From positions 92,612 through 156,611 of the forward strand of contig JALHNB010000006.1 in assembly GCA_022843745.1 (NCBI GenBank): DNA of 64,000 nucleotides, written 5' to 3'. Below the pieces are notes generated by a model. The model saw only the letters and a program-made list of their open reading frames with translations. It was not told where the DNA came from and did not search any database. Source of the DNA: Anaerolineae bacterium (GTDB taxonomy: Bacteria; Chloroflexota; Anaerolineae; Aggregatilineales; Phototrophicaceae). Numbering within the stretch: the stretch's first letter is position 1; every line of letters begins with the position of its first letter. The translations under genes and the position numbers were made by a program. Shown here piece after piece: positions 11,255 through 19,096 of this stretch.

Positions 11255-12133
11255 TTAGACGACAGCAGATTTCAGCCCTACGAGCGATTCGCTGATTTCC
11301 CACAGGCGGTGTGCAGCATCCTTGTCATACGATTGTGATGAGGACTGCACCGCCTTACTTTTATCGAAATATTTGCCCGTGATGCCTTCAACTTCAGGCG
11401 AAGTCGCGAGGTAAATCATTGTCTCCGCACCCTGCTCCGGTGTAAGGGCGAAAAAGCGCTGAACAACACCCATTACAAGACCCATTATCTTGCTGCTGTT
11501 GTGGCCGAAACCTGTAGCAACGAAGCCGGGATGAAGCACGTTAGCGGTCACGCCTGTTCCAGCCAAGCGCTGCGCGAGTTCATACGTGAATAGAATATTG
11601 GCAAGTTTGGACTCGCCATAAGCCGGCCAACCCGCTGTTCCATAGGCTTGCTTGTGTTGCAGATCGTCAAAATTCAGCGACATACCGCGATGGGCATCCG
11701 ACGACACATTGACAATGCGCGACGGCGCACTGGCTTTGAGCGTATCCAGCAGCAAATCGGTGAGCAGGAAATAATTCAGATGATTGAGGGCAAACGTCAT
11801 CTCATAGCCGTCTACCGTTTCCTGACGTGACGTAAAATATGCGCCCGCGTTGTTCACCAGCACATCGAGCCGCTGATATTTACGCTTAAATTCATCAGCA
11901 ACCCGGCGCACGTCCGCCATTACTGAAAGATCGCCGATCAAAATATCGACTGCATCATTTTTGCTGGCAGCTTTAATTTCGTTGGCGACAGCTTGGGTTT
12001 TGCTGGCATTGCGCCCGACGATAACCACACGAGCGCCCATTTTTGCAATTTCCAGCGCCGTCACTTTGCCGATTCCATTGGTTGCTCCGGTAATCAGGAC
12101 TGTTTTGCCACGCATGTCGGTGTGCTGTGCCAT
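11255..12133 (-). CDS. short-chain dehydrogenase/reductase (retinol-dehydrogenase-like)
   Basis: A 292-residue NAD(P)-dependent oxidoreductase with a Rossmann fold. The cofactor motif is VLITGATNGIGKVTA (TGxxxGIG), the NNAG motif is present, and the active site reads YGESKLAN (YxxxK). Sequence and length fit the RDH/WW-oxidoreductase-like SDR branch. The ATG at 12133 is preferred over a TTG one codon upstream. The substrate is unknown. The gene is divergent from ada across a ~160-bp gap. Confidence 0.88.
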   Translation of the reverse strand: MAQHTDMRGKTVLITGATNGIGKVTALEIAKMGARVVIVGRNASKTQAVANEIKAASKNDAVDILIGDLSVMADVRRVADEFKRKYQRLDVLVNNAGAYFTSRQETVDGYEMTFALNHLNYFLLTDLLLDTLKASAPSRIVNVSSDAHRGMSLNFDDLQHKQAYGTAGWPAYGESKLANILFTYELAQRLAGTGVTANVLHPGFVATGFGHNSSKIMGLVMGVVQRFFALTPEQGAETMIYLATSPEVEGITGKYFDKSKAVQSSSQSYDKDAAHRLWEISESLVGLKSAVV

Positions 12134-12297
12134 CAATTTTTTGCCTTTGCTCTCTAGAGGAATATTTTGATTGTAAGGGATAATGATGTGAGTAAGATAA
12201 GAAAACTTTTATTTGACCACAAGAACCGGATAGACCTATCAGGCCGAGTGGCTTATCCTAAGCATAGTTATCAACGCGCAGGAAAGGACATAATCGA

Positions 12298-13395
12298 ATG
12301 ACCGACACCCTACTCGACACAAAATTGGATGAGGCCGAGCGTTGGGAAGCCGTGATGAACCGGGACAGCCACTACGATGGTCGATTCGTCCTGGGTGTGC
12401 GCTCGACGGGTATTTACTGTCGCCCATCCTGCCCAGCCCGCAAACCAAAGCGCAGCAATGTCGTTTTCTACGCCGTTCCCGAAGAGGCTGAACGCGCCGG
12501 ATTCCGCGCCTGCAAACGCTGCCAACCCAACCAGCAGGCATTTGAGGCCGAGGTCATTCAGCGTGTGTGTGAATATATCGACCAACATCTGGATGATCGG
12601 CTTACCTTAGCCGACCTGGGGAGCTTTACCAATCTCAGCCCGAATCACTTTCAACGTGTATTCAAGCATGTTATGAGCATCAGCCCGCGCCAATATATTG
12701 AAGCGCGACGAATCGACCAGCTTAAAAATCGGCTCAAAAGTGGCGATACGGTCACAGAGGCGCTTTACGAAGTGGGCTACAGTTCCAGCAGCCGTCTCTA
12801 TGAACGCTCCAATGACCAACTCGGCATGACCCCGGCAGATTATCGCAAAGGAGCAAAAGGCATGAATATTCGTTATACCGTCACCGAATGTCCACTTGGC
12901 TATTTACTCGTCGCCGCCGCCGAACGCGGTATCTGCGCCGTCAGCCTGGGCGACTCGCCGGAATATCTCGAAGCCGAACTCCGTGCGGATTACCCGGCGG
13001 CTGAAATCTCGCAGGACGATTCCAGCCTGGGGGAATGGGTACACACACTTTTAGATCACATCAACGGGCAGCAGCCCCATCTGGAGCTACCATTGGATGT
13101 GCAGGCAACAGCCTTCCAGTGGCGCGTGTGGCAGGAATTACGCGCCATTCCGATGGGCGAAACGCGCTCCTATGGACAGATCGCCGCCGCCATTGGCAGC
13201 CCTAAAGCAGCACGCGCTGTCGGCACGGCCTGCGCCAATAATCGCGTTTCGCTGGTCATTCCATGCCATCGTGCGATACGCGAAAATGGCGATCTCGGCG
13301 GTTATCGCTGGGGATTGGAGCGCAAGAAGCGGATTCTGGAAACAGAGCGAAACGTAAGAGACTTAAGATTGCCTGAAGTGAAACGAGAAAGCTAA
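12298..13395 (+). CDS. ada: bifunctional Ada: AraC-type regulator / O6-methylguanine-DNA methyltransferase
   Basis: A 365-residue adaptive-response protein. The N-terminal methylphosphotriester-receptor domain has the four zinc cysteines (Cys41, Cys45, Cys72, Cys75). The middle is an AraC-type double HTH (LADLGSFTNLSPNHFQRVF...). The C-terminus is the suicide methyltransferase with PCHR (Cys323) and flanking GTACANNRVSLV. Full-length Ada repairs alkylated DNA and, once methylated on the N-domain, activates repair genes. AAGGA lies upstream of the ATG. No alkA or alkB is adjacent. All key residues are present. Confidence 0.96.
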   Translation: MTDTLLDTKLDEAERWEAVMNRDSHYDGRFVLGVRSTGIYCRPSCPARKPKRSNVVFYAVPEEAERAGFRACKRCQPNQQAFEAEVIQRVCEYIDQHLDDRLTLADLGSFTNLSPNHFQRVFKHVMSISPRQYIEARRIDQLKNRLKSGDTVTEALYEVGYSSSSRLYERSNDQLGMTPADYRKGAKGMNIRYTVTECPLGYLLVAAAERGICAVSLGDSPEYLEAELRADYPAAEISQDDSSLGEWVHTLLDHINGQQPHLELPLDVQATAFQWRVWQELRAIPMGETRSYGQIAAAIGSPKAARAVGTACANNRVSLVIPCHRAIRENGDLGGYRWGLERKKRILETERNVRDLRLPEVKRES

Positions 13396-13468
13396 GGATT
13401 GTCTGATAAGTATCTAACAATTTGCGTGTAACGTGGATTGTCATAAACAGGTTACAAGGACATACACG

Positions 13469-13720
13469 ATGGCTTTAACTCAGCAGCGCTCTGAAATTCC
13501 GCAGCCCCTCCCGCCCGAACCGCCAGGGCCATTTCCACCTGACCCGCCGGGGCCAATGCCGCCCGATCCGCCAGGGCCATTCCCGCCCGATCCGCCTGGC
13601 CCTATGCCACCGGAGCCACCAGGGCCGTTCCCACCCGAACCACCGGGGCCAATGCCGCCTATTCCGCCCGACCCGGAGCCACGACTCCCGCCAATGCCGG
13701 ATATTGATACGAGTACATAG
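13469..13720 (+). CDS. small proline-rich repeat protein (PPG octapeptides)
   Basis: An 83-residue protein built almost wholly from an 8-residue unit, P-[FM]-P-P-[DE]-P-P-G, repeated six times (24 bp each). Phe and Met alternate in five consecutive units (the first has Leu), giving a 16-residue higher period. A short MALTQQRSEIPQ head has no signal peptide, and the tail ends in MPDIDTST. The ATG at 13469 has AAGGA 8 nt upstream; an earlier open-frame start at 13433 lacks this. It probably forms an extended polyproline rod. Its function is unknown. It follows ada by 73 bp and could be co-transcribed. Confidence 0.7.
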   Translation: MALTQQRSEIPQPLPPEPPGPFPPDPPGPMPPDPPGPFPPDPPGPMPPEPPGPFPPEPPGPMPPIPPDPEPRLPPMPDIDTST

Positions 13721-13737
13721 CCCCAACGTAAATATAA

Positions 13738-13763
13738 GGGCGGGTCACAGACCCGCCCCTACG
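13738..13763. repeat. GTAGGGGCG-type palindromic element, copy 2
   Basis: GGGCGGGT (13738-13745) and ACCCGCCC (13751-13758) form a perfect 8-bp stem with a 5-nt loop, followed by CTACG. The right end, CGCCCCTACG, matches the other copies in this window. It lies between convergent genes and may act as a terminator. Confidence 0.55.
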
Positions 13764-13807: not shown

Positions 13808-15037
13808 TCAGTACAGGTCTTTCATGAGATTATCGGTCAATTCTTTGGCGCGTTCGGCAACGTCTGCCAAATCGGTCAGCAAAGTGCGTCGATTGGTTGG
13901 GATTGTACCGTAGTGCGCGTACTGCCACACTTCCTCGCTAATCTCGAAGACCGCATCCGGGAGCGCGAGACGGCGGGCGTTATCGGAGCGCCGTTTCAAG
14001 CCTTCCGGCCCTTCGGCTAGCCAATCCGTGAGTGCATCGGCCACACCGTAGGGACTGGGCGCGAAAATCCCCGCGCGATTTTCAGTAACGAACTCCACAT
14101 TGCCCGTTTCCTGACCGGGGATGGCATCATAAATAATCATCGGGACACCCGCGATGCAGGCTTCGCTGATCGTCGCCGGGCCAGCTTTGGTCACGAGAAT
14201 ATCGGCGGCGGCCATCAGCGTTGGCATATTCTTGACGAACGGATAGACCTTTGTCGGCTGATTCCAGTTACAGGCTTCCAGATTATCTTTCAGCGCTTTA
14301 TTATGTCCAGCGATGATAATAAGCTGACATTTCAGCCGACGACCATTAATCGCCCGCGCCGTCTGGTAAATCGGCCCCATTCCCTCACCGCCGCCGACCA
14401 TCAGCACGGCTGGCAGGTTCGGGTCCCAACCGAGTGATTGGCGGGCGGAAGCTTTATCGGTCAAGCCCTGGGCGAAGCGATAATGCACTGGCAAACCCGT
14501 AATTCGCATCTGATCCAGCGATAAGCCGGATTTCAGGCCTCGATCATAGGCAGCCTCAGTCGGGACGAGGCAGCGTTCGCAGTTTTTGTCATACCAAAAA
14601 TGATGGGTCGAAACCAGATCGGTGACGACCACGATAAACGGCGGGCGCTGTTCGAACGAAAGCAGCGCACTCATCGCCGGGTGAGTCAACACAGAATGAA
14701 CCGATACCACGACATCCGCAGGGTGTTCGCGCAGCATCCGCTTCAGGCCGCTTTCGAGCGTGACGTACATGCCCTGCGAGAGAATCTTCGCACGGCGCTT
14801 GGTATTGGAGAAATTGTAACCTGCGCCCCATGACGATTTGCTGCGGTTAATCCACCAGGGGTAAAACTCTGGCATATATTTGAAAGGAACGGGAGAATAA
14901 TCGCGAAACACATCAACCAGTTCCACCTTAACTGCGGCTTCGCCATGCTTGAGATATAACGCATCCCGGATTGCTTCTGCCGCCGCGCGGTGTCCGCCGC
15001 CCGTGTCGGACATCAAAATCAGGACTCGTTTCTTCAA
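13808..15037 (-). CDS. GT28 glycosyltransferase, MGDG-synthase-like
   Basis: A 409-residue glycosyltransferase of the MGDG synthase / processive diacylglycerol glucosyltransferase type, which would move a sugar from an NDP-sugar to diacylglycerol at the membrane. The N-terminal MGDG_synth domain has the SDTGGGHRAAAEAI loop. The C-terminal GT28 domain has VMVGGGEGMGPI and the donor site TKAGPATISEACIAGVPMII. It is cytoplasmic or peripheral, with no membrane segment. The start overlaps the DUF951 stop by 4 bp (ATGA), indicating translational coupling. Confidence 0.9.
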   Translation of the reverse strand: MKKRVLILMSDTGGGHRAAAEAIRDALYLKHGEAAVKVELVDVFRDYSPVPFKYMPEFYPWWINRSKSSWGAGYNFSNTKRRAKILSQGMYVTLESGLKRMLREHPADVVVSVHSVLTHPAMSALLSFEQRPPFIVVVTDLVSTHHFWYDKNCERCLVPTEAAYDRGLKSGLSLDQMRITGLPVHYRFAQGLTDKASARQSLGWDPNLPAVLMVGGGEGMGPIYQTARAINGRRLKCQLIIIAGHNKALKDNLEACNWNQPTKVYPFVKNMPTLMAAADILVTKAGPATISEACIAGVPMIIYDAIPGQETGNVEFVTENRAGIFAPSPYGVADALTDWLAEGPEGLKRRSDNARRLALPDAVFEISEEVWQYAHYGTIPTNRRTLLTDLADVAERAKELTDNLMKDLY

Positions 15038-15300: not shown

Positions 15301-15491
15301 TCAGATACCGAAAATGTTTAGCAAGATTCCGCCACATGTTTTACCGTAGAATTACAATATATTGCGCCCTTTCAGCGCCCTGGCCGTCCCGCAGAACTCA
15401 CCGCACGTTAAGCCAAAATAATACACAGTCCCTACAGTGCTATGATATACTTGCAGTGAAAGTTTCATCCCTATCTGACGGAGAATTCTCC

Positions 15492-19008: not shown

Positions 19009-19096
19009 ATATCGCTCATATGAGTCAGCGATCATTGATAATGCGTATCCTAATATCGCTCATACAAATCAGCGATCACTGATAATGCGCATACTA
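19009..19096 (+). repeat. two 44-bp direct repeats with internal dyads
   Basis: Copies at 19009-19052 and 19053-19096 are head-to-tail with about 7-8 differences. Each contains ATCGCT...AGCGAT inverted arms; in copy 1 the loop holds the palindrome CTCATATGAG. They end 24 bp before the TIGR01777 oxidoreductase start. This suggests a duplicated regulator-binding site or slippage product. Confidence 0.7.

Follow-up and report, generated by a model that had tools for sequence, protein, structure and literature searches.

An 83-aa open reading frame (P0001) in the window, the whole stretch of 64,000 nucleotides that was analysed, looks like a genuine small protein gene, and nearly half of its product (41 of 83 residues) is proline set in eight-residue units. 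In our best reading, which has close to an even chance of being right, this gene encodes a cytosolic, acidic polyproline-II rod that acts as a multivalent docking or spacer element for a partner protein, with EF-P required merely to make the rod. The ORF lies behind ada on the same strand with a gap of 73 nt, among the following features.

11255..12136, minus strand, short-chain dehydrogenase gene, divergent from ada
12298..13395, plus strand, full-length Ada (bifunctional regulator / O6-methylguanine-DNA methyltransferase; NCBIfam NF011964 at 394.4 bits, cut-off 345; also Pfam)
13456..13460, plus strand, Shine-Dalgarno-like AAGGA, 8 nt 5' of the ATG at 13469
13469..13720, plus strand, 83-aa proline-octad ORF P0001 (49% Pro, pI ~4, without Cys)
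13505..13672, plus strand, seven in-frame 24-bp units (PLPPEPPG, PFPPDPPG, PMPPDPPG, PFPPDPPG, PMPPEPPG, PFPPEPPG, PMPPIPPD)
13735..13761, no strand assigned, GC-rich hairpin with 12-nt arms (92% complementary) between the convergent P0001 ORF and glycosyltransferase gene
13808..15037, minus strand, MGDG-synthase-type glycosyltransferase gene, convergent to the P0001 ORF

The second residue of the seven octads runs L-F-M-F-M-F-M, the acid position E/D/D/D/E/E/I, and the last position is Gly six times and then Asp. TRF reported the array at a period of 24 bp (73% matches, score 132) and of 48 bp (80%, score 193), and the pattern CCNGGNCCNNTNCCNCC has six occurrences in the window, where 0.05 would be expected. 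A preliminary description of this DNA had announced six near-perfect P-[FM]-P-P-[DE]-P-P-G units; the exact ORF position and the 24-bp array stand by TRF and the pattern count, but only five units have this form completely (F, M, F, M, F), the sixth PPG octad carries Leu and the seventh is degenerate (PMPPIPPD). At the protein level the units are near-perfect; at the DNA level they are not, neighbours being 62–83% identical within the six PPG octads and 50% identical at the step to the last unit. The suggested true period of 16 residues applies to the Phe/Met codon but to nothing else (mean identity 0.733 between units two apart vs 0.746 between neighbours). Asp and Glu do not alternate, and the alternation of F and M through six units has, for three of each, an arithmetical chance of 1 in 10. 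A collagen-like Gly-X-Y pattern was not found, Gly being every eighth residue of P0001 and not every third. Read by eye, the translation has no hydrophobic stretch at its N-terminus, in agreement with the reported lack of a signal peptide.

The codon positions at which the units differ bear out the earlier proposal of selection on the protein beyond mere DNA slippage. Among units 1–5, Pro and Gly codons differ at least 9 times at the third base but never at the first or second, a pattern with a probability of ~5e-5 if changes were spread evenly over codon positions, and units 0–5 have a pS of 0.62 vs a pN of 0.10. When all seven units are compared, bases 1 and 2 of these codons change only once, where the degenerate seventh unit has Asp in place of Gly. 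Since the changes are confined to the third base, strand and frame have been kept as protein. GC3 of the ORF is 0.57, compared with 0.59 in sampled long ORFs. A non-coding minisatellite with an accidentally open frame is thus next to impossible and was rejected: the array is tandem and the exact repeat was not found in relatives, but in the six PPG octads, codons for Pro and Gly vary only at the third base of the P0001 frame, and a Shine-Dalgarno sequence precedes it. Absence from relatives had been named beforehand as a sign of a satellite; the exact repeat is indeed absent from them, but this does not imply a satellite because the codon-position evidence opposes one.

Unlikely, though with a probability well above that of a satellite, is a young orphan gene of little or no function, in which a proline-codon tract grew by slippage, became an ORF, and was tolerated. 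Repeats of this kind arise easily, the identical repeat was found nowhere else in the material searched, and the genus of the window has no second genome among the 98 family genomes. Against this origin, neighbouring units have drifted to 50–83% identity as DNA over all seven units while the protein pattern was maintained, and similar genes with good Shine-Dalgarno sites occur in three other genera.

Homology searches returned little beyond the gene itself. A P0001 protein search of 61 genomes matched the own genome only (60 relatives without match), and an exact two-octad DNA pattern had 0 occurrences in genome_contigs and 0 in viral_contigs, two collections that may lack the record of the window itself or very similar ones. 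At E ≤1, P0001 matched 131 of 396 class genomes, its own among them; the matches in all others were weak (best E 1.9e-4). A script scan for dense PP in 29 of the class loci (L032–L060) flagged six, none of which holds a short octad gene by eye: L033 consists of Cys-rich overlapping frames, L037 is a Pro-rich stretch in a 406-aa frame, and L045, L051, L052, and L055 are Arg-rich or mixed frames. Profile A1, made from five sequences, matched 4 of 98 family genomes; three of these matches were sequences of the profile itself, and the fourth (E 0.024) was a frame interrupted by three stops. Although P0001 was among the five sequences, the genome it comes from was missed; such profiles are therefore nearly blind here and their negatives weak. 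Two look-alike proteins described below also served as queries. The 79-aa protein of genome G066 matched 17 of 61 family genomes at E ≤1, strongly only itself (dense PP frames at L094 and L112 were set aside, the layout being unlike in both), and the protein of G021 matched 16 of 396 class genomes at E ≤0.05, the best (1.4e-4) being in a frame with three stops. P0001 matched 0 Pfam and 0 NCBIfam families at E ≤0.001 and four PDB sequences (best E 0.062), and its AlphaFold2 model had 0 Foldseek matches in the PDB. The literature search returned no paper on a gene of this kind.

Because low-complexity sequence weakens homology searches, we examined ada-region DNA directly in 40 regions from the family and 20 from the order; these 60 regions represent G036 and 59 of the 86 further genomes for which ada was listed. 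Under a fixed rule (45–300 aa, ≥30% Pro, ≥5 PP, Shine-Dalgarno), 3/60 regions were positive, all less than 4 kb from ada: G066 (79 aa), G024 (71 aa), and G021 (180 aa). No such gene was present in the other 57, some of which are truncated at a contig end; because many contigs with ada are short, absence is not always demonstrable (that of G004, from the genus of G024, ends ~300 bases upstream of ada, L123). In G066, a second acidic Pro-rich ORF of 68 aa lies directly behind the 79-aa ORF and, at 26% Pro, falls below the limit of the rule. The Shine-Dalgarno sequences are GAGGAGG for both ORFs of G066, AAGGAG in G024, and AGGAG in G021, and P0001 and the look-alikes are all acidic (pI 4.05–4.27) and without Cys.

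Residue autocorrelation at lags 8, 16, and 24 gave z = 9.6, 8.9, and 5.3 for P0001 and 7.5, 6.0, and 4.5 for the 79-aa protein of G066. G021 has a lag-16 z of 4.7 and a lag-8 z of 2.2, and no significant period was detected in G024 (lag-8 z −0.9) or the 68-aa protein of G066 (lag-8 z −0.7). P0001 and the 79-aa protein have a PPx-PPx-zz layout in common, in which zz is Pro-Phe/Met in P0001 and ID, ID, IQ, IT, ID, and TD in the six PPxPPxID-type octads of G066. Judged from the two sequences, this is a shared design with differing letters that does not imply common descent; among the four genes no alignment beyond composition was demonstrated, and G024 has no period.

P0001 seems to be one of a loosely knit, rapidly evolving group of small genes for acidic, proline-rich proteins that occur near ada in four genera of a single Chloroflexota family. 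This class (small, >30% Pro, acidic, Shine-Dalgarno, <4 kb from ada) was defined post hoc and comprises the gene in the window and those in 3/60 ada regions. In ~1.67 Mb away from ada, a figure that is approximate because the far sets overlap somewhat, there was no credible case; one frame passed the rule (L208, 10092–10241), which is Arg-rich and was judged a chance frame. Applied to 864 kb of the own genome, the rule had P0001 as its sole match. With even placement, three look-alikes would all fall near ada with p ~0.012, a post hoc value for genes that were found by reading ada regions and with a 4-kb limit chosen after they were seen. The L208 frame, L226 (the window locus again), and the 68-aa gene of G066 (on account of its 26% Pro) were removed from the near/far count, and the p value excludes 28 named ada loci (26 recognised as holding ada, 0 matches) as well as those stretches of the dehydrogenase loci and the window that lie near ada. 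Frames that appeared under looser rules were judged chance (e.g., L117, L118, L127, L131, L150, L153, L160, L186, L187, L207, L208, L218, L241, L276, L280, L285, and L286). On these sequence counts, the link to ada is suggestive only.

One conceivable meaning of this link is a role in the ada-linked alkylation response, with P0001 as a small acidic partner of Ada or repair enzymes whose gene has been shuffled around ada in the family. This is improbable. Three independent look-alikes within 4 kb of ada, the want of a credible one elsewhere, and the position of the window ORF behind ada on the same strand speak for it; on the other side are the 57 ada regions with no such gene, the way in which look-alikes and limit were arrived at, and neighbours that make ada a possible bystander, the short-chain dehydrogenase and ilvD also being near ada in some relatives (a close dehydrogenase relative of >50% identity in 8/40 family regions, ilvD in 4/40). 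Around the dehydrogenase itself (30 loci, ~1.5 kb flank), no octad-like gene was found except the window's own. The position relative to ada also differs per genus: an operon-like layout is limited to the window and perhaps G066, and opposite-strand genes lie between the look-alike ORF and ada in G024 and G021. In the window, a consensus scan, which is weak evidence, found neither a plus-strand terminator nor a promoter in the gap between ada and P0001. The ORF is perhaps read from the ada transcript.

The ada regions of relatives contained some further ORFs. An ORF of 124–132 aa directly follows ada in G066 (L125:8383-8781, minus strand) and G021 (L126:8496-8870, minus strand); the two N-termini are similar by eye, and the slot is that of the P0001 ORF in the window. 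In G066, a second Ada-like ORF (L125:7469-8341, minus strand) comes after the full-length Ada and matches it only from about residue 78; this shorter kind is the sole Ada among the matches listed for nine genomes of genus g18.

P0001 contains six PPG, four PPD, and three PPE motifs (13 in 83 aa), and the own genome has an EF-P gene (188.2 bits, cut-off 185.8; G000:C1:78450-78998, L287), and this very high load of EF-P-type motifs supports the preliminary description to that extent. Arrest-type motifs, self-defined as PP[PGDENSWQ], reach 15.7 per 100 aa in P0001, whereas 468 ORFs of ≥250 aa in 864 kb of the own genome average 0.12 and do not exceed 1.39. The EF-P loop tip is Arg (PGRG) by eye. 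An EarP search had no match, and neither did the control genomes, which makes it uninformative. The look-alikes carry fewer pause motifs (two PPE in the 79-aa protein of G066; three PPP, two PPD, and one PPG in G024; three PPD, one PPE, and one PPG in G021), and the density of PP[PGDE] per 100 aa is 15.7 in P0001, 2.5 in the 79-aa protein, 8.5 in G024, and 2.8 in G021, a comparison that does not imply common descent.

The choice of proline codons bears on how these genes are read. According to the available part of PMC8129111, CCC and CCU are strongly avoided in E. coli as first codon of Pro-Pro pairs, where slippage is possible, and among 15 bacterial genomes CCC is disfavoured in Pro pairs in 13 and CCU in 11. 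In the four main genes, CCC/CCT stands first in 0/15, 1/15, 2/13, and 1/18 pairs (4/61) and second in 8, 5, 5, and 10 (28/61). The long ORFs of the own genome have CCC/CCT first in 16% of 602 pairs, and 40% of all their Pro codons are CCC/CCT. In a control of 122 chance proline-rich frames, the counts are 66/398 first and 110/398 second; comparison of the four genes with this control gives a one-sided p = 0.026, calculated with repeat units that are not independent. The control frames share the first-codon bias, and composition therefore explains part of the scarcity of slippery codons. The codon pattern gives support, but not proof, that the four genes are translated and run smoothly instead of stalling.

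The preliminary description had gone further and suggested a possible sensor of translation. In such a sensor, the PPG/PPD/PPE run would stall ribosomes at low EF-P and report this, e.g., via ada mRNA stability or its own level. We consider such a sensor very unlikely. The motif load, the arrest-type density far above that of own-genome ORFs, and the presence of EF-P would suit it, as would the strong EF-P-dependent pauses that the available part of PMC4140641 lists for PPG, PPD, and PPE in E. coli and the retention of some strong-pause motifs in the look-alikes. The layout of a leader peptide is absent, however: the next gene (13808–15037, minus strand) is convergent and the next plus-strand gene candidate 3' of the ORF starts only at 15336. 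Motif density thins out in the look-alikes, slippery first codons are scarce (partly through composition), and most PPX motifs are independent of EF-P in E. coli, again by the available part of PMC4140641.

The docking or spacer rod is the reading that we prefer to such a sensor. An extended polyproline-II rod is a plausible and natural reading of the composition of P0001, and the protein is most likely located in the cytosol. The single-sequence AlphaFold2 model is fairly confident by its mean pLDDT of 82 (~90 mid-chain) and has a pTM of 0.17; the intracellular polyproline rod of the preliminary description is plausible at most. The rod would be set by proline pairs, with a single hydrophobic knob (Phe/Met/Leu), a single acid (Asp/Glu), and a Gly displayed on every octad (PPx PPx Px). 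By helix geometry, these three non-Pro residues, spaced three apart, should fall on one face of a three-fold helix, with successive octads turned by 240 degrees. Such a surface could dock a partner protein at several sites or act as a spacer rod, EF-P would be needed simply for making it, and P0001 may have some tie to Ada. A broader version is quite improbable: here the cytosolic polyproline-II rods of bacteria would include an undescribed kind that travels with ada, is used in alkylation repair or its control, and is built on an acidic template of eight residues, constant in layout but with letters that drift between genera (PPDPPGPF to PPQPPTID).

Among known systems, the proline-rich segment of TonB, a periplasmic polyproline-II spacer, is likewise Pro-rich, charged, extended, and bacterial, but P0001 has no membrane anchor, export signal, or folded end domain visible by eye, and the whole protein is repeat. 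Vertebrate small proline-rich proteins of the cornified envelope are also small and Pro-rich with an eight-residue repeat; they are eukaryotic, cross-linked, and use other residues, and kinship with P0001 is not suggested. EF-P-dependent PPX sites, as described in the available parts of PMC4140641 and PMC8129111, resemble P0001 in their PPG/PPD/PPE motifs and in the rarity of CCC/CCU as first codon of Pro-Pro pairs, but are single motifs in ordinary proteins, whereas P0001 is built of such motifs and has no regulated gene after it. P0001 is an unusually pure natural case of a short bacterial protein, nearly half Pro and with 13 potentially costly motifs, that is kept by selection; it could serve to study the benefit of a free polyproline-II rod to a bacterium and the way in which EF-P handles motifs in dense arrays. 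The ada link, if true, would add an uncharacterised component to a DNA-repair neighbourhood in Chloroflexota.

Downstream of P0001, the hairpin at 13735–13761 is terminator-like on the minus strand, such sites being no commoner in the scan than in shuffles, and its core pattern had no other occurrence in 864 kb of the own genome. In 29 glycosyltransferase loci of relatives (flank ~1.5 kb or less), neither ada nor an octad ORF was present; a small 66-aa gene adjoins the glycosyltransferase in 26 and a membrane-protease-like gene (M50-like by eye; start at 15336 in the window) in 23. Further along the window, a 44-bp unit occurs in two tandem copies (19009–19096, 86% matching).
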